A stretch of DNA of 64,000 nucleotides. It comes from Haloarchaeobius sp. HME9146. GTDB lineage: Archaea; Halobacteriota; Halobacteria; Halobacteriales; Natrialbaceae. The first letter of the stretch is position 1; each line of letters opens with the position of its first letter. Where the stretch lies: contig NZ_JAODVR010000001.1 in NCBI RefSeq assembly GCF_025399835.1, positions 1 through 64,000 of the forward strand. Reading direction: 5' to 3'. The notes beneath the pieces were generated by a model. It did not search any database, had not been told where the DNA came from, and worked only from the letters and a program-made list of their open reading frames with translations. Made by a program: the position numbers and the translations under genes. Positions 9,893 through 26,136 of the stretch are shown here, one piece after another.

Positions 9893-12232
9893 TCACAACA
9901 ACAGCAGCGCGACCGCCAGTGCGTTGCTCACGCCGTGACAGAGCATCGGCACCGCGAGGTTGTGGGTGCGGGCGTACACCGTCCCCCAGACGATGGAGAT
10001 GGCGAACAGCTGGGCGAGCGCCATCCCGACCGCGGCCGGGGTTCCAGAGTACATCGGCAGGTGGGCGATTGCAAACACCGCCGAGCCGACCATCACCGCG
10101 CCCGCAGTCGTGAAGGAGCGGTCGAGGTTGCGCTGGATGACGCCCCGGAACATCAGCTCCTCGATGGGCCCGTTGACGAGCAACACGAGCGGGAGGACCG
10201 AGAGCAAGAGCCCGGCCCCGCCCAGCGCCGCGTAGGAGACCAGCGTGTGCTCGGCCACGGGGAGGTCGAAGTACCACGCCATGGCGACGACACCCATCTC
10301 GACCGCACCGGTGGCGGCGACACCGGCGATGACGTGCGTGACGTCGGAGTCGGAGAGCCAGTAGACGTCCATCCCGCGGATACCGTCCCCGAATCCCTCC
10401 AGGATGAGCACGACGACGAGCAGGTAGCCGAAGTAGCCCGCGACGAACAGCAACACGAGGTCGGTGACGCCGTCGCCCGGCAGGACGACGAGCGCGGCCA
10501 GCCCGACCGCCGAGGAGACGAGGGTCCCGATGACCGCGACGCCGACGGCGAGGTGGACCGCAAGGCGGCGCGACCAGCGGACGCGGCCGGGGTCGCGGCC
10601 GACGGCCTCGAACGATTCGAGGGCGTAGCGGTAGGAGCCGTCGGTGACGAGTACGAGCAGGCCGAACAGGAAGCCGACGACGAGCAGCAGGTCGAACTCG
10701 GCAAGCACCAGCGCCGGTCCGGCCGCGACGAGCACGGTCGTGGCGACGAGGTGGTAGACGATGGCGGTCACCGAGGGCGCGACGCTCTCGACCCGGGCGA
10801 ACAGCCTGACCGGGGTGTACCGCGGCGCGAGCGTCCCCACACCGAGGGCGAACGCCGCGCTGGCGAGCGTCAGCGCGACCCAGTACCCGCCGACCGCCAG
10901 GGCGTCGAGGGGTGCCAGTGGCCCGAGCGCGAGCAGGGTCGTCCCGACGAGCACCAGCGGGACACCGACGAGGACCCCGAGCATCATCCGGGCCCGCAAC
11001 AGGACGGCCGCTGGCATCGTCGCCAGCAGGAGCTGGGCGAGCATCTCCTCCTCCTCTCCGAGCGGGTTCAGCCCGAACAGCGCGCCGGCGAGCCAGACGC
11101 CGAGTAGGACGAACGACGTGCCGACCAGCGTCAACGCGAGCGAGGGATACACCACGACGGGCACCAGCAGCGTCCCGACCGCGAACAGGTAGTAGAAGAC
11201 GTAGCCGTGGCGGTGCGGGGACCGAACGGCGCGCCACCAGAGCCGGGTCGCGACGCGGCGAGTGGGCGAGGGTGACCTGACCGACTGCGAGCCGATGTGG
11301 GTACGGCCGTCGCTCGACAGCGGTGCGTCACCGTACCAGAAACTCGGCGAGAACACGGAGATGACGGTCAGACTGCCCGGGATGGTCAACACGACGGCGA
11401 CGGCGGCGACGAGGGTCGCGGTCGTCAGCGTCTCGACGGCGGGCGTGCCGACGAACAGCAGGTCGGCGTACCACGAGAGTCGCGAGAGCGGGTCGCCCGC
11501 GGGCAGGGTCGCCACCGGAATCGAGACCTGCGCGAGTACCCCACCGGCTCCGGTCCCGGTGGTCGCCGTCGGTGCCGGGCCGTGGACCGCGATGCTGCCT
11601 GCGAAGGCGACCAGCCCACCCGCCATAACTGCCGCGGTCACACCCCCGAGCGCGCCCAGGACCGACCGGACCGACGTGGGCAGGGGGACCCGTCGAAGGC
11701 CGAGCCGGACCAGCAGCCCGAGTGCGTACCCGAACAGGATGGCCGCGACGAACAGGGTGGCGACGGCGAGCGTCCCGGCGACGGCGAGTATCGGCGAGCC
11801 AGCACCGACCGCCACCGCCAGCACGAGGATGGTGGCCGGCGTCAGGAAGACCACGGTCCACTCGAACAGGTCGGCGAGCAACAGGCCGCGAACGAGCGTC
11901 CGCACCGGGACCGCCGTCAGCATCATCTCTCTCGCATCGAGCGACAGCACCCGCCGCCCGGCCTGGATGGCCCCGAGGACGACGACGAACACGACGACGC
12001 CCGGCAGGTAGTACCGGGCCGCGCTGACCGTGGTCGGGTCACCGGCCGCGAGCGACCGGCCGACCGCCATGGCTGCCTGCACGAACACCACGAACACCGG
12101 CGCGAGCAGGACGAGCGCGAGCACCAGCAACGCCTCGTGGTGGCGACTCCCGATGTAGCGCCGGCCGTTGCGCTGGACCTCGGCGCTCGCGATGCGCCAG
12201 GCGACGTTCGCCCGCGGCCAGCGCGCGCTCAT
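9893..12232 (-). CDS. ABC-2 type permease fused to a CPBP metalloprotease
   Basis: A 779-residue multi-helix membrane protein. The N-terminal two thirds look like an ABC-2 exporter permease with two sets of helices and a large polar loop near residues 330-350. The C-terminal 200 residues form a complete CPBP protease unit: EELMFRGVI (Glu691-692, Arg696), AIAHLPMY (His724) and CHGVSNAL (His766). The ATP-binding partner is encoded just upstream (12288-13049), so this is an exporter whose permease carries its own intramembrane protease. CPBP enzymes are known for maturing peptides, so coupled processing and export of a peptide is an attractive inference. Substrate unknown. Stop and start signals around 12229-12291 suggest translational coupling. 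Confidence 0.85.
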   Translation of the reverse strand: MSARWPRANVAWRIASAEVQRNGRRYIGSRHHEALLVLALVLLAPVFVVFVQAAMAVGRSLAAGDPTTVSAARYYLPGVVVFVVVLGAIQAGRRVLSLDAREMMLTAVPVRTLVRGLLLADLFEWTVVFLTPATILVLAVAVGAGSPILAVAGTLAVATLFVAAILFGYALGLLVRLGLRRVPLPTSVRSVLGALGGVTAAVMAGGLVAFAGSIAVHGPAPTATTGTGAGGVLAQVSIPVATLPAGDPLSRLSWYADLLFVGTPAVETLTTATLVAAVAVVLTIPGSLTVISVFSPSFWYGDAPLSSDGRTHIGSQSVRSPSPTRRVATRLWWRAVRSPHRHGYVFYYLFAVGTLLVPVVVYPSLALTLVGTSFVLLGVWLAGALFGLNPLGEEEEMLAQLLLATMPAAVLLRARMMLGVLVGVPLVLVGTTLLALGPLAPLDALAVGGYWVALTLASAAFALGVGTLAPRYTPVRLFARVESVAPSVTAIVYHLVATTVLVAAGPALVLAEFDLLLVVGFLFGLLVLVTDGSYRYALESFEAVGRDPGRVRWSRRLAVHLAVGVAVIGTLVSSAVGLAALVVLPGDGVTDLVLLFVAGYFGYLLVVVLILEGFGDGIRGMDVYWLSDSDVTHVIAGVAATGAVEMGVVAMAWYFDLPVAEHTLVSYAALGGAGLLLSVLPLVLLVNGPIEELMFRGVIQRNLDRSFTTAGAVMVGSAVFAIAHLPMYSGTPAAVGMALAQLFAISIVWGTVYARTHNLAVPMLCHGVSNALAVALLLL

Positions 12233-18953: not shown

Positions 18954-20747
18954 TTAAATCAGTTCGGCCATCTCGTCGAGGTACTCGCCGTACACGTCGA
19001 GTGCGGCCTGCACGGGTTCTTTGGTGCCCATGTCGACACCGGCACCCTGCAGCAGTTCGAGCGGGTACTCCCGCGAACCCTTCGAGAGGAAGTTCAGGTA
19101 GTCGTCTGCGGCCTCGTCGTCGTCGGGGTCGAGGATCTTCTGGCTGAGCGCGACGGCGGCCGAGATACCAGTTGCATACTGGTACACGTAGAACGAATAA
19201 TAGAAGTGGGGAATCCGCATCCACTCCCGTTCGATGTGCTCGTCGACGTTCGCGGGTTCGTAGAACTCGCGCTTGAGGTCGCCGTACACCTGGTCGACCG
19301 CGTCGGGGGTGAGCGCCTCGCCCTCCTCGACGAGCTTGTGGGTCTGGTGCTCGAAGTCCGCGAACATGGTCTGGCGGTACAGCGTCGACCGGAAGCGCTC
19401 GAGGTACTCGTTGAGGACGTGGCGGCGGAACGTCTCGTCCTCGACGGTGTCCAGCAGGTGCTGGGTGAGCAGCGCCTCGTTGACCGTGCTGGCCACCTCG
19501 GCCACGAAGATCTCGTAGCCGGAGTAGACGTAGGGCTGTTCCTGCTTGGTGTACTGGCTGTGCATGGAGTGTCCCAGCTCGTGGGCCAGCGTGAACATGC
19601 TCGAGATGTCGTCCTGCCAGTTCATCAGGATGAACGGCTGGGTGTCGTAGGTGCCGCCGGAGTACGCGCCCGACTGCTTGCCCTTGTTCTCGTACACGTC
19701 GACCCAGCGGGAGTCGAGACCTTCCTGGACGCGCTCCTGGTACTCTTCGCCGAGTGCACCGAGGGCTTCGACGGTCCACTCACACGCCTGCTCGTAGGAG
19801 ATGTCGGGGCTCTCGGTCTCGGTCATCGGCATGTAGAGGTCCCACATCTCGACCTGGTCGACGCCGAGGGCCTCACCCTTCAACTCGGTGTGCCGGTGGA
19901 GCTTGTCGAGGTTCTCGCGGACCGATTCGAGGAGGTTGTCGTACACCTCGACCGGGACGTTGGGGCCGTCGAGGGCGGCCTCGCGGGCGGTGTCGTAGTA
20001 GCGGGCCTGTGCGGTCTTCACGTCGGCCTTCACCGCGTTCTTGTACGCCGCGGCGACCGTGTTTCGCACGTCCGCCCAGTCCTCGTAGAAGGACTCGTGG
20101 ACGGTCTGGCGGAACTCGCGGTCCTGGTTCTTGAGCAGGGTGGTGAAGTTGTTCTGGGTGATCTGGACCGAACTCCCGTCGGGCTTCTCGACGGTGGGGA
20201 ACTCCATGTCGGCGTTGGCGAGCATGTTGTACACCTCGCTCGTGCCGCCGGTGACCTCACTGAGTTCTGCGAGCAGCTCCTCGACCTCGGCCGAGCGCGT
20301 GTGTTCTTTCATCCGGAGCACGTCGTCGAGGTAGTGCTCGTAGGTTTCCAGGCCCTCGGTCGACTCGACCATCGCCGATATCTCCTCGCGGGTGGCGGAC
20401 TGGATCTCGGGGTCGATGAACGACGCGGCGCTGGAGGCGTCGGAGGAGAGCGACTGCGCACGGGCGGTGAACGCCTGGTACTGCTGGTTCGTGGTGTCCT
20501 CGTCCTTGCGCATGCGGGCGTAGGAGTACACCATGGACACCTCGCGCATGATATCGTCGCGGAGCTGGAGGACCGAATAGAGCGTCTCGCCGTCGTCGGT
20601 GACCTGCCCCTCGTACTGCTCGAGGTCGTCGAGTCGTGACTGCACCGTCTCGAACGCCTCCTCCCACTCCTCGTCTGTCGCGTAGATAGACTCGAGGTCC
20701 CACGTGTACTCGGTGTCTATCTCGGACCGTTCGGGGACTGAACTCAT
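18954..20747 (-). CDS. pepF: Oligoendopeptidase F
   Basis: PepF is a cytoplasmic zinc metallopeptidase of family M3 that degrades short peptides. The 597-residue protein starts at ATG 20747 (MSSVPERSEIDTEYTWDLES). It has the family N-terminal helical domain and the zinc motif HELGHSMH near residue 390, with the third ligand expected in the following VAEVASTVNEALL segment. The C-terminal part is conserved (FYYSFYVYQYATG). Length is normal for PepF. An extended start 27 codons upstream is unlikely because it lacks the acidic character. It probably has its own promoter in the 290 bp spacer upstream. Confidence 0.95.
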   Translation of the reverse strand: MSSVPERSEIDTEYTWDLESIYATDEEWEEAFETVQSRLDDLEQYEGQVTDDGETLYSVLQLRDDIMREVSMVYSYARMRKDEDTTNQQYQAFTARAQSLSSDASSAASFIDPEIQSATREEISAMVESTEGLETYEHYLDDVLRMKEHTRSAEVEELLAELSEVTGGTSEVYNMLANADMEFPTVEKPDGSSVQITQNNFTTLLKNQDREFRQTVHESFYEDWADVRNTVAAAYKNAVKADVKTAQARYYDTAREAALDGPNVPVEVYDNLLESVRENLDKLHRHTELKGEALGVDQVEMWDLYMPMTETESPDISYEQACEWTVEALGALGEEYQERVQEGLDSRWVDVYENKGKQSGAYSGGTYDTQPFILMNWQDDISSMFTLAHELGHSMHSQYTKQEQPYVYSGYEIFVAEVASTVNEALLTQHLLDTVEDETFRRHVLNEYLERFRSTLYRQTMFADFEHQTHKLVEEGEALTPDAVDQVYGDLKREFYEPANVDEHIEREWMRIPHFYYSFYVYQYATGISAAVALSQKILDPDDDEAADDYLNFLSKGSREYPLELLQGAGVDMGTKEPVQAALDVYGEYLDEMAELI

Positions 20748-21036
20748 GGCACTGGCTTCGAATCGAAACGAGGTAAGCCTTGCCAACCAGCGTCCGCTGC
20801 GGGTCGGCGAGAACGGGATCTGTCGCAAGGGTCAGGCGATGGGAGAAGCGGACCGAGCCCGGGAGCGCCGACGTGGCACGATGCCAGGTCGACCGCGTGA
20901 GACCCGCTCGCGGCGGTGTCGGGTGGGAGCGGTCCAAGCGCGAATGGTTCGCTGTGGGGTGAGGGGGTGCCTCTGGGTGCCAGTGGGGTGATGGGTGGGT
21001 GTTCGGGAGTTCGTCCCGCGGTGGGATGACGCTCGG

Positions 21037-21222
21037 TCAGGAGTTCTCGAACCAGGACCGGATTCCACATTCCGGGCAGCTGAGGGTGTCGACGGTGGGC
21101 TCGTCGGACTCGAAGCTGGTCCCGCAGACCCGACAGTCGTAGTGGTAGTGGCGCTCCTCGGACTCGGACTCGAACGCGGTCTTCAGGGACTGGAGTACGG
21201 TCATCATGCCACGTTTCTCCAT
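21037..21222 (-). CDS. Small zinc-ribbon protein
   Basis: A 61-residue protein starting MEKRGMMTVLQSLKTAFESE, then a two-knuckle zinc ribbon: CRVC and CPEC, 20 residues apart. The start of the ribbon contains HYHYDCRVCGTSF. Stand-alone zinc ribbons of this sort are abundant in haloarchaea and are often nucleic-acid or protein-binding adapters, but this one has no assigned role. An alternative start is Met6 or Met7. It is divergent from the M28 peptidase gene. Confidence 0.8.
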   Translation of the reverse strand: MEKRGMMTVLQSLKTAFESESEERHYHYDCRVCGTSFESDEPTVDTLSCPECGIRSWFENS

Positions 21223-21455
21223 GGTCGCTCGGGGAGTATGAACCCCTGAATCCGTTCGCGAAGTTCATGCTCTCTCACTGGATTGTCCGCCCCTGTTGCG
21301 CTCTGTTTCATCGGAGCGAACGCCCGGTAGAAACTATCTACGCAGCGAATCTCCGTCCCGACAGTTCCATACGTTCCCCCGACAGTTTCGGTTTTCCCAG
21401 TCGGTTCATGCGTCTCACACCCAAGGTTTTCCCCCCACCCCACCCACCACCAGGT

Positions 21456-22760
21456 ATGACCGATATCGATGCGGTGCTCGGGCGGCTCTGGCGCGACGAG
21501 ACCCCCTGGCAGTTCCTGACCGCACTCTGTGAACTCGAGGACCGACTCGCGGGACATCCCGGGGAGGCCCGGGCCGCGGCCCTCGTCGTCGACGCGTTCG
21601 CGGACGCTGGCGTCGCGACCCTCACGCACGAGACCTCGCCGATCACCCGCTGGTCACGAGGCCACACCGAGTTCGCGGTCACCGACCCGGTCGAACGCAC
21701 CTTCGAGGCGGTCGCGCTCCCGTACTCGCCCGCGGGCGAGACGAACGCCCGACTGGTCGACGTTGGCCACGGAACACCGGCCGAGATAGCGGCGGCAGAC
21801 CTCGACGGCGCGGTCGCGCTCGCGAGCACCACGACCCCCAGCGACCAGCGGTTCGTCCACCGCATGGAGAAGTACGGGCACGCAGCAGAGGCGGGTGCCG
21901 ACGCGTTCGTCTTCGCGAACCACAAGCCCGGCCAGTTGCCGCCGACCGGCTCGCTCCGGTTCGACGAGGAGGGTGCCATCCCGGGCGTCGGCGTCTCCTA
22001 CGAGACGGGCGAGTGGCTCGGGGAGTACGCCGAGCGCGACGGCTCGGTCCGCCTGTCGGTCGACGCGAGCACGGATGCGGGCGAAACCCACGTCGTCCAC
22101 GGGACCCTGGGCCCCGACACCGACGAGGAGATTCTGGTGCTGGCGCACTTCGACGCCCACGACGTGGGGGAGGGCGCGCTCGACAACGGCTGTGGCATCG
22201 CTGTCGTCGTCGCGCTGGCCCGGGCACTCGCCGCCGTCGACCTCGACTGTCGAGTGCGTGTCGCCGGCGTCGGTGGCGAGGAGGTCGGCCTGCTCGGGAG
22301 CGAGGCGCTGGCGGAGCGTCTCGACACCGACCGCATCCGCGCCGTGGTCAACGTCGACGGGGCGGGCCGCCACCGCGACCTCGTGGCCTACACCCACGCA
22401 CACCCGGAGCTGGAGACGGTCGCCGCCGAGCTCGCCGACCGGACCGACCGCCCGGTCCACGTACGGCCCGACCCACACCCATGGAGCGACCACTGGCCGT
22501 TCTTGCGCGCTGGTGTGCCATCCTTGCAACTCCACTCCGAGAGTGGCGAGCGTGGCCGCGGCGTGACGCACACGCGAGCCGACACGAGAGACAAGGCAGA
22601 TTCCCGAACGTTACGGGAACACGCCATGCTCACCTGCTTACTTGTACGTTCCCTGGCGTGTAGAAACTTCAGTCGCCTGGGGACTGAATCGCTCCACGAC
22701 GCGCTCCGGGAGCAGTCGTTCGAACCGGGGATGCGGGCCGCGGGTATCTGGCCCGAGTAA
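21456..22760 (+). CDS. M28-family zinc peptidase
   Basis: A 434-residue peptidase of family M28 (aminopeptidase Y/S-like), which removes N-terminal residues from peptides using two zinc ions. The metal-binding pattern is HFDAHD (His231, Asp233), LDNGCG, the catalytic EE in VGGEEVGLLG, VNVDGAGRH and a late His in GVTHTRADTRD. A PA-like insertion lies before the catalytic core (about 90-190). I start at ATG 21456 (MTDIDAVLGRLW); the longer frame upstream is unlike coding sequence. No signal peptide is visible, so the enzyme is probably cytoplasmic. The last 40 residues contain two cysteines and look family-specific. Confidence 0.9.
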   Translation: MTDIDAVLGRLWRDETPWQFLTALCELEDRLAGHPGEARAAALVVDAFADAGVATLTHETSPITRWSRGHTEFAVTDPVERTFEAVALPYSPAGETNARLVDVGHGTPAEIAAADLDGAVALASTTTPSDQRFVHRMEKYGHAAEAGADAFVFANHKPGQLPPTGSLRFDEEGAIPGVGVSYETGEWLGEYAERDGSVRLSVDASTDAGETHVVHGTLGPDTDEEILVLAHFDAHDVGEGALDNGCGIAVVVALARALAAVDLDCRVRVAGVGGEEVGLLGSEALAERLDTDRIRAVVNVDGAGRHRDLVAYTHAHPELETVAAELADRTDRPVHVRPDPHPWSDHWPFLRAGVPSLQLHSESGERGRGVTHTRADTRDKADSRTLREHAMLTCLLVRSLACRNFSRLGTESLHDALREQSFEPGMRAAGIWPE

Positions 22761-23008
22761 GGTGGTTTCTGGTTGGTTACGTTACTGAGCCACAGACACT
22801 AACCTACCGACCCCTCATAGACTTTCTACGAATCTCCTCAAGGTTTTTATCGATTACGTAGTTGACTACTTACAACAACCACACAGGTCTGTTGAGTTAT
22901 CCTTACTATCTAACCCAGCCGTAGTTACTGATGCGAAACGACAACTTGCCCACGTGCAGGGGGGTGCACGGTAATGCGTTGTCGGTACACGACAGCGCGA
23001 CACATATA

Positions 23009-24109
23009 ATGAGCAAACACAACAACGCTGTAAACAGACGTACTGTTCTGACGACACTCGGTATCGGGGGGGCCGCACTGGTCGGTGGTGTCGGGACCGC
23101 CTCCGCGCGCGGACGCTACGGTCGCCGCGGCTTCTACGGCCCGACGGCGGACCCCTGTGGCACGTGTGCCCCAGAACCCGTATGCGAGCCGCTGTGTGAA
23201 CCCGAGCCCGTGTGCGAGCCCACGGTGAAGTACATCGTCGACATCTGCAACACCACGTGTGGGCAGGCATGGACCCCGCCCGCGCTGGCGATCCACAGCC
23301 GCTTCGCCAAGCTGTTCCAGGTCGGCAGCGAGGCGTGCCCCGAGCTCGCCGCGCTCGCGAAGAACGCGGACCTCGGCCCGATGATCAACACGCTGGGCGT
23401 CAGCGCCGAGGACGGCACCGACATCTTCGCGTTCGACATCGGTGACGACGTCGTCATGTCGACCACCGACCCGCTCAACACCGGGATATCGAACAAGACG
23501 ACCATCGAGATCGAAGCGCCGATGCGCTACTCGGTGCTCTCGATGGCCGCGATGATGCTCGCGACCAACGACGGGTTCGCCGGCGTCGACTCCATCCGCA
23601 TGCCTCGCGGGCCGGGTGAGGTCGTCAGCGCACCCATCTTCGCGTACGACGCGGGTGTGGAGTGCAACAGTGAGAAGGCCGCCGACCTCGTGCAGGAGGC
23701 GTTCCTGTTCACCGACGTCGTCTCCAGCGGTACCCAGGCGACCTCGGAGCAGGACCTCACCTGCAACGCCGAGGGCTTCGTCCACCACCACCAGGGCATC
23801 CTGGGCCTGTGCGACCTCGACTGCGTCAAGCACGGCTGGGACGGCCCCGTTGGGACCATCACCATCACGATGGAAGCGCCCGACCCGTGTGCCGACGTCG
23901 ACCCGTGCGCAGACCCCTGCGCCGACGTCGACCCGTGTGCAGTCGACCCGTGTGCAGACGTCGATCCCTGCGCGGTCGACCCGTGCGCTGACGTCGACCC
24001 GTGTGCAGTCGACCCCTGTGCCGACGTCGACCCATGCGCGACCAACACCTGCCCCAGTGGCCTGAAGAAGAAGAAGCAGACCCGCACCATGCGGCGTGGC
24101 TACTACTGA
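23009..24109 (+). CDS. Tat-secreted spondin-domain protein with Cys-rich repeats
   Basis: A 366-residue secreted protein. Tat signal NRRTVLTTLGIGGAALVGG (about 9-27) precedes a Cys-rich segment (DPCGTC, VCEPLCEPEPVCEP, residues 50-70). A spondin_N-like domain follows (about 90-285), recognised from PALAIHSRFAKLFQVG and LSMAAMMLATNDGFAGVDSI. Residues 292-348 are tandem repeats of DPCADVDPCAV with 11 cysteines. A basic tail KKKKQTRTMRRGYY ends the protein. An upstream in-frame ATG at 22931 would also be open but would bury the signal peptide. I infer a disulfide-linked surface or extracellular protein; partner unknown. This many cysteines is unusual for haloarchaeal exported proteins. Confidence 0.82.
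   Translation: MSKHNNAVNRRTVLTTLGIGGAALVGGVGTASARGRYGRRGFYGPTADPCGTCAPEPVCEPLCEPEPVCEPTVKYIVDICNTTCGQAWTPPALAIHSRFAKLFQVGSEACPELAALAKNADLGPMINTLGVSAEDGTDIFAFDIGDDVVMSTTDPLNTGISNKTTIEIEAPMRYSVLSMAAMMLATNDGFAGVDSIRMPRGPGEVVSAPIFAYDAGVECNSEKAADLVQEAFLFTDVVSSGTQATSEQDLTCNAEGFVHHHQGILGLCDLDCVKHGWDGPVGTITITMEAPDPCADVDPCADPCADVDPCAVDPCADVDPCAVDPCADVDPCAVDPCADVDPCATNTCPSGLKKKKQTRTMRRGYY
23882..24049 (+). repeat. Coding tandem repeat (DPCADVDPCAV units)
   Basis: About five in-frame units of roughly 33 bp encode C-A-D-V-D-P-C-A-V-D-P. The first unit is one residue short (CADVDPCADP). Codons vary between units (TGT or TGC for Cys, GTC or GTG nearby), so the array is not a very recent perfect duplication. 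All copies keep their cysteines, which argues for selection on the protein. Confidence 0.8.
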
Positions 24110-24277
24110 GCCACCGAGGTAACGACCGAACCGGTCTCGGGCGGGCCGTCACCCGCGCGAGCCGCCGACGGGCCAGGTAACCCATCCATCCAGTCTGCCA
24201 TTCGGGACACTCGACTGCTGTCCGGGTGACCCACCTCCGGGAGACCCGCCCGTCGCGTTCGCTGTCGTCTCCGTACA

Positions 24278-25105
24278 TCATCCGTCGTTCTCCGTTTTCT
24301 CCACCGCTGTTTCCACACATCCGGCAGCCCTGGCTCTGGTCGCCGCATCGGCACGCTTCGTCTCGAACACGTCCTGGACACTCTCGACCCCGCGAGCGTC
24401 GCGCTCGAAGACCACCCTCGGATACGTGGCATCGACCAGCACTAGCCCCACCGGCGACGCCGGCGGGATACCCTCGTGGCCGGGCAGCGGCTCCGGATCG
24501 AGGACCCGGTCGACCTTCGAGAGTGGGGCCGCCCCGGTCGCGACCGCCCGGACGAGCGACCCGAGCCGGCGGACCAGTTCCCAGAGGAAGCCGTCGGCAC
24601 GAACCGAGAATACGAGGAACTCGCCGTCGCCCTCGACCGTGGCGGTCTCCAGCGTCCTGACCGTGTCGTCTTTCGAGGTGGCGGTCAGGTTCGCGAAGTC
24701 GTGCGTGCCAGCCAGCTTCGCCATCGCCGCGCTCGCCAGTTCGGGGTCGGCACCCGGCGCGTAGAGGTGGCACTCGTACGCCCGGCTCGTCGCGTCGTAG
24801 GTCGCGTGGAAGTCGTCGGGCACGTCGGCACTCGCCCAGGCGCGGACGTGGGCCGGGAGCTGCCCGTTGAACGCTCGCGGCGTCAGCCAGTCCGGGCACT
24901 CGAACGCGACGGTCTGGGCGACCGCCGAGACGCCCGCGTCGGTCCGGCCCGCCGCCGCGTAGCCCTCGGGGACCTCGTCGGGCGCGTCGATGATACCCAA
25001 CTCGCAAAGGGCGTCGAACAGGGCCGACTCGACGGTCGGCACGTCCGGCTGGCGCTGGAAACCGTGGTAGGGGCGACCGTCGTAGGCGATGCGGAACGCG
25101 CGCAT
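24278..25105 (-). CDS. truA: tRNA pseudouridine synthase TruA
   Basis: TruA makes pseudouridine at positions 38-40 of the tRNA anticodon arm. The 275-residue protein starts at ATG 25105 (MRAFRIAYDGRPYHGFQRQP). It contains the catalytic aspartate in AAGRTDAGVSA (Asp56), and the FVFSVRADGFLW-like segment with WELVRRLGSL expected for the second half. A short charged C-terminal extension follows. A longer frame continues upstream into the neighbouring membrane-protein gene on a different frame and is not real. Frequently neighbours hisS in haloarchaea, as here. Confidence 0.93.
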   Translation of the reverse strand: MRAFRIAYDGRPYHGFQRQPDVPTVESALFDALCELGIIDAPDEVPEGYAAAGRTDAGVSAVAQTVAFECPDWLTPRAFNGQLPAHVRAWASADVPDDFHATYDATSRAYECHLYAPGADPELASAAMAKLAGTHDFANLTATSKDDTVRTLETATVEGDGEFLVFSVRADGFLWELVRRLGSLVRAVATGAAPLSKVDRVLDPEPLPGHEGIPPASPVGLVLVDATYPRVVFERDARGVESVQDVFETKRADAATRARAAGCVETAVEKTENDG

Positions 25106-25169
25106 TGGCGAGGGTTCGCCGGGCACAGGTTTGTAGCTGGCGCGTTTCGCCGGTGATTCCGTGGGTCCC

Positions 25170-25676
25170 CTACTCGGCAGCCGTGGGCGCGCCCGGCGGC
25201 ACCAGCCACCGCGAGAGTGCGAGCAGTCCCACGTCGAGGAGCGAGAAGGCGAGGCCGACGACAGTCCCGATGGCGAGGGCGAACGCGCCGCCGATACCGA
25301 AGAACAGCAGGAGAACGAGCATCTCGCCGAGGAACGCGAACGCGAGCGTGAGCAGGACACCGAGGAAGAACAGGAGGCCGGTGACGGCACCCCACTTCGC
25401 ACCCGCGGCGACGACGGCCCGTGTCGAGGACCGGTCGGGACCGAACAGCTCGACCGCCCCGAGTACCCGGGTCGTCGTCCACAGCGTCACCGCCCAGAGG
25501 TACAGGAACGCCGCGAACCCGACGACCGTGTTCAGGCCGCCCAGCGGGTCGCCGAGCGCACCCGAGAGGTGCAGACTCGCGACCCCGGCGGCGGTCAGGG
25601 TCGCGGTGTGATACGTCCCGAGACACCACGCCAGCAGCGTCGGCTGTGCTTCGGCGAAGAAGCCCGAGTCAGCCAT
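25170..25676 (-). CDS. Conserved haloarchaeal membrane protein
   Basis: A 168-residue protein with four to five hydrophobic helices. It starts MADSGFFAEAQPTLLAWCLG; the helices include LYLWAVTLWTTTRVLGAVEL, LLFFLGVLLTLAFAFLGEML and FGIGGAFALAIGTVVG. No catalytic motif is visible. It overlaps the upstream gene end by eight bases (25669-25676), so the two are co-translated. Function unknown. Confidence 0.75.
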   Translation of the reverse strand: MADSGFFAEAQPTLLAWCLGTYHTATLTAAGVASLHLSGALGDPLGGLNTVVGFAAFLYLWAVTLWTTTRVLGAVELFGPDRSSTRAVVAAGAKWGAVTGLLFFLGVLLTLAFAFLGEMLVLLLFFGIGGAFALAIGTVVGLAFSLLDVGLLALSRWLVPPGAPTAAE

Positions 25677-26136
25677 GTGCCAGCACCTCCGCCAGCGAGA
25701 GCAACAGCACGAGCACGCCCGCGGTCAGCCCGTAGGCACGCGTGAGGGTGGCTTCCGACCCGGGGAGCCCGAGCCGACGAACCCGGACGACGGCCAGTGA
25801 CCGGGCCATCGAGAACAGGACGAACCCGAGGAGCACCGCCAGTTTCAGCGCGAGGACCGCCCCCCAGCGCGTCTCGGTCGTGGGGACGGCCGGGGCCAGC
25901 GCCCCGAGGTTCCCGACGCCGGTCATTACGACCACGCCGAGGGCTCCCCAGAACAGCCACTCGTAGCTCGCGGCCGTAGGGAGCAAGTGCTCGGCGGTTC
26001 GGTCAGCGTCATCGGTGTCGCGGCTGTCGCGTCGGAACGCCAGCCACACGACGACGGCACCACCAACTAGCACCGTCACCGCCAGCAGGTGTAGCAGACG
26101 CACGAGGAGGGCGGTCGCCTGATGCGAGAGGACCAT
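25669..26136 (-). CDS. CopD-like membrane protein
   Basis: A 155-residue protein with four helices, starting at ATG 26136 (MVLSHQATALLVRLLHLLAV). The pattern is similar to the CopD/DUF2269-type four-helix proteins: LLVRLLHLLAVTVLVGG, a loop, WGALGVVVMTGVGNLG, LALKLAVLLGFVLFSMA, then a final helix. In bacteria CopD takes part in copper uptake; here the usual histidines are partly absent, so function is uncertain. It forms an overlapping pair with 25170-25676. Confidence 0.7.
   Translation of the reverse strand: MVLSHQATALLVRLLHLLAVTVLVGGAVVVWLAFRRDSRDTDDADRTAEHLLPTAASYEWLFWGALGVVVMTGVGNLGALAPAVPTTETRWGAVLALKLAVLLGFVLFSMARSLAVVRVRRLGLPGSEATLTRAYGLTAGVLVLLLSLAEVLAHG

Follow-up and report, generated by a model that had tools for sequence, protein, structure and literature searches.

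What might a haloarchaeon do with a putatively secreted protein that joins a spondin domain to a tail of cysteine repeats? One gene raises this question in a 64,000-nucleotide stretch of the Haloarchaeobius sp. HME9146 genome (hereafter, the window). Its parts, and the related loci, are listed in Table 1. The preliminary description rightly recognised the open reading frame, a five-cysteine N-terminal cluster (C50, C53, C59, C63 and C69) and a basic tail ending MRRGYY (exact C-terminus KKKKQTRTMRRGYY). Seven cysteines of the spondin domain, at positions 80, 84, 110, 219, 252, 268 and 272, were overlooked, and the protein has 23 in total. The same description assigned 11 cysteines to DPCADVDPCAV repeats. 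That number is correct for the tail, but ten are in DPCA units (positions 294, 300, 304, 310, 315, 321, 326, 332, 337 and 343) and the eleventh, C348, is within TNTC. The tandem array was found independently by TRF (score 239, period 33/66). With a pI of 4.2, the mature protein is acidic, and its ends are basic (pI 10.8 and 11.2). Model TIGR01409 scored 14.5 bits, slightly below its cut-off of 16.7. The RRTVL motif is present and, because of this motif and the general form of the signal, we label the protein as a probable Tat substrate.

Table 1. Coordinates of the spondin gene, its parts and neighbours in the window, and of related loci elsewhere.
Feature	Location	Strand	Remarks
Upstream neighbour, M28 peptidase	21453..22760	+	Conserved synteny marker
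Conserved upstream stretch	22840..23008	+	TATA-like TTTTTATCG near 22845; long leader probable
Spondin gene, complete	23009..24109	+	ATG at 23009, stop ends at 24109; 366 codons (366 aa) plus stop; putative Tat-type signal, Cys cluster, spondin domain, DPCA repeats, basic aromatic tail
Signal peptide	23009..23107	+	Residues 1-33; twin-arginine motif NRRTVL; cleavage after ASA probable
Mature-protein start, basic aromatic RGRYGRRGFYG	23108..23140	+	Resembles RGYYG/RGFYG runs of Tat array proteins
N-terminal cysteine cluster C50-C69	23156..23215	+	5/5 Cys kept in G001
Spondin (FS) domain, seven lineage-specific Cys	23228..23872	+	NF038123, AlphaFold2, mindin FS match
NDG motif	23567..23575	+	D188 is aligned to the PSPDW Asp of F-spondin, a Ca2+ ligand
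YDAGVECNSE motif	23645..23674	+	D214 and E218 align with F-spondin Ca2+ ligands D354/D358
Ten DPCA units, acidic cysteine repeat	23882..24040	+	TRF, DNA pattern, ortholog comparison
Basic tail PSGLKKKKQTRTMRRGYY	24053..24106	+	pI 11.2; ortholog alignment limited to the terminal TMRRG[YI]Y plus a single Lys
Downstream neighbour, TruA	24278..25234	-	Adjoins M28 gene in 4/4 congeners without the spondin gene
Tandem array, eleven Tat-signal genes	L012:3176-11835 (G000:C2:511175-519835)	+	Proteins of 115-242 aa
Unlinked CRYNRRLDAYICRR-repeat (CRY) Tat-signal genes	L132:1268-4223, L133:1253-2158	-	Array-type promoter upstream
Tat-signal YPYPRPRP-rich protein	L136:2443-2886		Array-type promoter, E 6e-4
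TFB gene beyond array	L250:4106-5119 and L049:3215-4222		93% identical between the two species

The proposed spondin_N-like domain was borne out by both profile and predicted fold. NCBIfam NF038123 matched with an E-value of 5.1e-23 (82.3 bits, cut-off 40); Pfam Spond_N (PF06468) by itself stayed under its gathering score (13.7 versus 24 bits). Pfam and NCBIfam searches gave no further domain, and the thrombospondin type 1 repeats that accompany the FS domain in animal spondins were not found. For structure prediction, the AlphaFold2 input comprised the spondin protein and 40 genome-contig relatives. The pLDDT exceeded 90 across most of residues 71-210, with block means of 64-97 onward to residue 300, and was below 50 at both termini. 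The solved fold closest to the model was the mindin FS domain (Foldseek E 1.1e-11; Z 19.6, rmsd 3.1, 187 residues), followed by the F-spondin FS domain (Z 17.3, rmsd 3.9, 197 residues). All remaining folds, C2 domains and similar, had Z of 6.1 and below. The predicted fold is that of an FS/C2-variant beta-sandwich.

The excerpted text of PMC3117680 places the Ca2+ ligands of F-spondin at D325 of PSPDW and at D354 and D358 of DAGTD. In a phmmer alignment with mindin, residues D188, D214 and E218 of the spondin protein fall at the corresponding motifs. All three are conserved in 33/33 aligned haloarchaeal rows, the spondin protein among them (of 33 loci tried, L009 was unmatched and dropped, L018 duplicates L093 and L103 is partial). 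The change from D to E at position 218 is tolerable because the last ligand in F-spondin is, in the same excerpt, a main-chain one. Judged by alignment, the residues of an F-spondin-type Ca2+ site are present. The likeness to the mindin/F-spondin FS domain of animal extracellular matrix thus extends to the predicted fold and to the D/D/E ligand positions. Conversely, identity is 13-17%, and the cysteines of F-spondin, as excerpted (PMC3117680), are placed differently: three precede strand 1, the 6-7 loop holds two and a single one follows strand 8.

NF038123 proteins of bacteria and haloarchaea share the domain and fold of the spondin protein, as well as its NDG and YDxGxExNxE motifs. They differ in their cysteines. 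Each of the best 80 of 400 relatives had at most three core cysteines, no cysteine cluster and no DPCA or other Cys-rich tail. Positions 80, 84, 110, 219, 252 and 272 are Cys in 2/33 haloarchaeal rows each, namely the spondin protein and its ortholog, and position 268 is Cys in 1/33. The bacterial proteins have another Cys pair, at 185 and 231, which is found in 59 and 60 of 79 rows, haloarchaea included (this wider alignment omits one 1215-aa protein, L212, by length). In contrast, the spondin protein has Ala at both positions.

The sole ortholog, in congener G001, is 86% identical and syntenic. Of 22 aligned cysteines 20 are kept, comprising the whole cluster, 6/7 in the domain and 9/10 in the aligned tail. 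C268 and C348 are substituted and the C310 unit is absent; the number of DPCA units and their linkers also vary between the two species. For repeat codons, dS was 0.96 and dN 0.07. The values were 0.21 and 0.08 for core codons, and 0.54 and 0.97 for the last 21 codons. In 6/9 repeat Cys codons that are aligned and kept, TGT and TGC are switched with Cys retained (tandem-repeat alignment being ambiguous). The high dS and low dN, with codon switches that do not lose Cys, argue that the repeat is under selection at the coding level and not a product of chance. Taken together with the Cys counts, the codon values indicate that the cysteines are retained though most of the tail end changes. Hence, free variation of the repeat cysteines, which would speak against the preliminary description, was not seen in the only ortholog.

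When the genome was searched with the spondin protein, the only matches besides itself were the DPCA repeats of two genes on another contig. Both are members of the tandem array of Tat-signal genes. The array proteins are rich in Tyr, Arg and Gly, and some have poly-Arg/Asp or DPCA segments. Tyr reaches 31% of the mature proteins (for example, RGYYGRRFYGRGYYG) and the mature pI is above 9 in 8/11. The two DPCA members have flanking Arg/Tyr-rich segments and both end in Y. Thus, DPCA repeats and RGYY-type ends are common to the spondin protein and other proteins of this genome. Curated Pfam and NCBIfam cut-offs were passed by none of the eight array proteins tested. A syntenic array in G001 has eight such genes, one with DPCA.

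A DNA pattern of three DPCA units occurred in 2/125 family genomes, this one and G001, and the reversed control pattern in none. The preliminary description had called the mix of features unlike any haloarchaeal surface protein. This stands for the combination, given the pattern's rarity and the lack of such a tail in the best 80 of 400 relatives. It does not stand for the repeats alone, which are present in further Tat-signal proteins of the same genome. Among 392 genomes from the order, only this one and G001 were matched more than once by the array profile; in seven further genomes it gave a single weak match. Weak repeat-like matches in haloarchaea G380, G404 and G316 were rejected, being Ser/Ala repeats without Cys. 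In another family, genome G418 encodes a Tat-signal Arg-rich protein (L218:1423-1947) whose C-terminal part is like array gene L012:9882-10505. This hints at broader relatives of array members.

Nearly all array genes are preceded by their own copy of a conserved promoter. The consensus, from 17 sequences in two genomes, is CAACTTCGTGGTAC-N4-GTAAC-N4-TTAYTACC-N6-TATAT. A model of this promoter (R1), run over six genomes, recovered the 17 training sites and seven more. Six of the extra sites lie immediately 5' of Tat-signal genes (E 1e-4 to 0.04): three L132 genes, their L133 counterpart in G001, the L136 YPYPRPRP-rich gene and the last array gene. The seventh is in G004 (E 0.2). The L132 and L133 products carry CRYNRRLDAYICRR repeats of ~14 residues, with 9-15 Cys per protein (longest ORFs). 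Such CRY-repeat proteins were found, among 125 genomes, in the same two and as one weak match in G058 (E 8.5e-4). The TFB gene near the array is a candidate regulator, possibly a dedicated transcription factor.

Model R1 had no match near position 23009, even with filters off. A promoter common to the array and the spondin gene was therefore rejected, and their co-expression is unsupported. The DNA upstream of the spondin gene is itself conserved; 146/150 bases from 22900 to 23049 are the same in G001. In the six genomes searched, the conserved stretch matched solely before the spondin gene and its ortholog, so a leader common to other genes was rejected. The TATA-like stretch suggests a leader of ~135 bases, and the conserved DNA is a possible regulatory leader. 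Such leaders are uncommon in haloarchaea. Rfam gave no match over positions 20000-26000 of the window.

In G001, the spondin gene likewise sits between the M28 peptidase gene and truA. No spondin gene separates them in the other congeners (G002-G005, 4/4), where the two genes are adjacent. Neighbour gene identity is 87% between the two carrier genomes, versus 71-72% for the other congeners; the carriers are sister species and closest relatives. The spondin gene, array and CRY cluster co-occur in the same 2/6 congeners. Since the carriers form one lineage, this co-occurrence may represent one event and not independent ones. NF038123 proteins of any sort are present in 4/125 family genomes. In a tree of 83 rows, the two orthologs share a branch 1.52 long that falls outside a 100/100 haloarchaeal spondin clade, which includes congener G003's own spondin. 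The length of this branch leaves their exact position unsure. A virus origin was rejected, as viral contigs held no relative. A plasmid origin was also rejected; plasmid matches were to the spondin core only, in Vibrio and Pseudoalteromonas. For the array, plasmids matched only the flanking genes, apart from a single weak match of 2%, and a plasmid origin was likewise rejected. Elsewhere in the window, one 2-kb bin (10001-12000) has a strong AT skew of 0.37, unlike neighbouring bins.

The shared modules, the restriction to one lineage, the predicted export and the conserved cysteines point to cross-linked exported material with the spondin protein as its anchor. Hence, we propose that this protein anchors and cross-links an extracellular coat specific to the lineage, built with the array and CRY proteins. 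We consider the proposal evenly poised between right and wrong. The spondin protein would be exported by the Tat route, its signal removed at ASA|RGRYG, and would have a structural role outside the cell, both anchoring and cross-linking. Its FS (C2-variant) domain, which retains the residues of the Ca2+ site, may bind Ca2+ and a cell surface or matrix component. The cysteine cluster and DPCA repeats would make intra- and inter-chain disulfides. The basic aromatic ends (RGRYGRRGFYG and MRRGYY) and the acidic DPCA segments would co-assemble with the Tyr/Arg/Gly-rich array proteins, themselves putative Tat exports. The CRY proteins, whose genes share the array promoter and may be co-expressed with the array genes, would probably take part too. 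Counting against a coat are the different promoter of the spondin gene, the poor conservation of most of the basic tail and the low pLDDT of the termini. Furthermore, DPCA repeats common to several genes could reflect recombination without physical partnership.

Recombination is also central to a different explanation, which we regard as rather unlikely. Here, the spondin protein is an independent adhesin unrelated to the array: a divergent spondin that gained disulfides for stability in the oxidising, high-salt exterior, with the DPCA repeats copied from gene to gene. Its long branch apart from the haloarchaeal clade, its distinct promoter and the lack of linkage to the array all fit. However, the array proteins are resembled at more than one module, ends as well as repeats, and other haloarchaeal spondins do without the core disulfide cysteines. 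Could the cysteines bind metal instead? The DPCA repeats and N-terminal cluster might use Cys and Asp ligands to chelate Zn, Cu, Cd or a similar soft metal, for sequestration or storage, with the spondin domain as a tether. So many cysteines with alternating Asp offer many potential ligands, C50-C53 forms a CxxC, and the Tat route is able to export proteins already loaded with metal. Conversely, metallothioneins have dense CxC and CxxC motifs; the spondin protein has no CxC, this single CxxC, repeat spacings of Cx3C, Cx4C and Cx5C, and no match to a metallothionein profile in Pfam or NCBIfam. Cys spacing and the absent profile match led us to reject metallothionein identity. Metal binding also leaves the Tyr/Arg-rich partners and basic aromatic ends unexplained, and we think it unlikely.

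The repeats and tail might, finally, be a low-complexity expansion of little function, drifting by slippage on an ordinary secreted spondin. Differences in unit number and linkers between the species, and dN above dS in the last 21 codons, are what drift would produce. It would not readily account for 9/10 aligned tail cysteines kept amid many synonymous changes, nor for the retention of those in the core and N-terminal cluster. We deem such drift very improbable.

The cross-linked coat that we favour would, by analogy, be like one made of keratin-associated proteins, in which a Gly/Tyr-rich component is combined with a Cys-rich one. In mammals these are gene families of small structural proteins, Gly/Tyr-rich and Cys-rich, according to the excerpted text of PMC2528016. 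The likeness would be functional only, with no homology, and the archaeal set differs in its Tat signals and Arg-richness. Excerpts of PMC10067837 describe the gain of secreted/Asp-rich repeat proteins in hyphae- and spore-forming haloarchaea, which are alike in having lineage-specific exported repeat proteins of Halobacteria. A link to them was rejected: the lineage is another one, G+C is 57%, and the main text of that paper, as excerpted, makes no mention of Cys- or Tyr-rich Tat proteins. Open-licence PMC yielded no literature on such proteins in haloarchaea.

The usual picture of the haloarchaeal envelope is an acidic S-layer that contains few cysteines. Our fuller model, which we offer tentatively and as somewhat improbable, is that the two sister haloarchaea have evolved a private extracellular coat of Tat-exported proteins with two to three types of repeat (RGY-rich, DPCA and CRYNRRLDAYICRR), held by a Ca2+-dependent spondin anchor that carries the DPCA module. 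The array and CRY genes would belong to a single promoter class, which the TFB may recognise. If so, sclerotised coats such as the hair matrix would have a salt-adapted archaeal counterpart, whose building blocks would be basic and not acidic. It would provide a test case for the site of disulfide formation in Tat export, and a test of the behaviour of basic aromatic proteins in molar salt. It would also place the spondin domain, as a matrix anchor, outside animals. A gene set for exported Cys/Tyr/Arg-rich repeat proteins, with its own promoter and anchored by a spondin protein, would then be a new way of building an archaeal surface.
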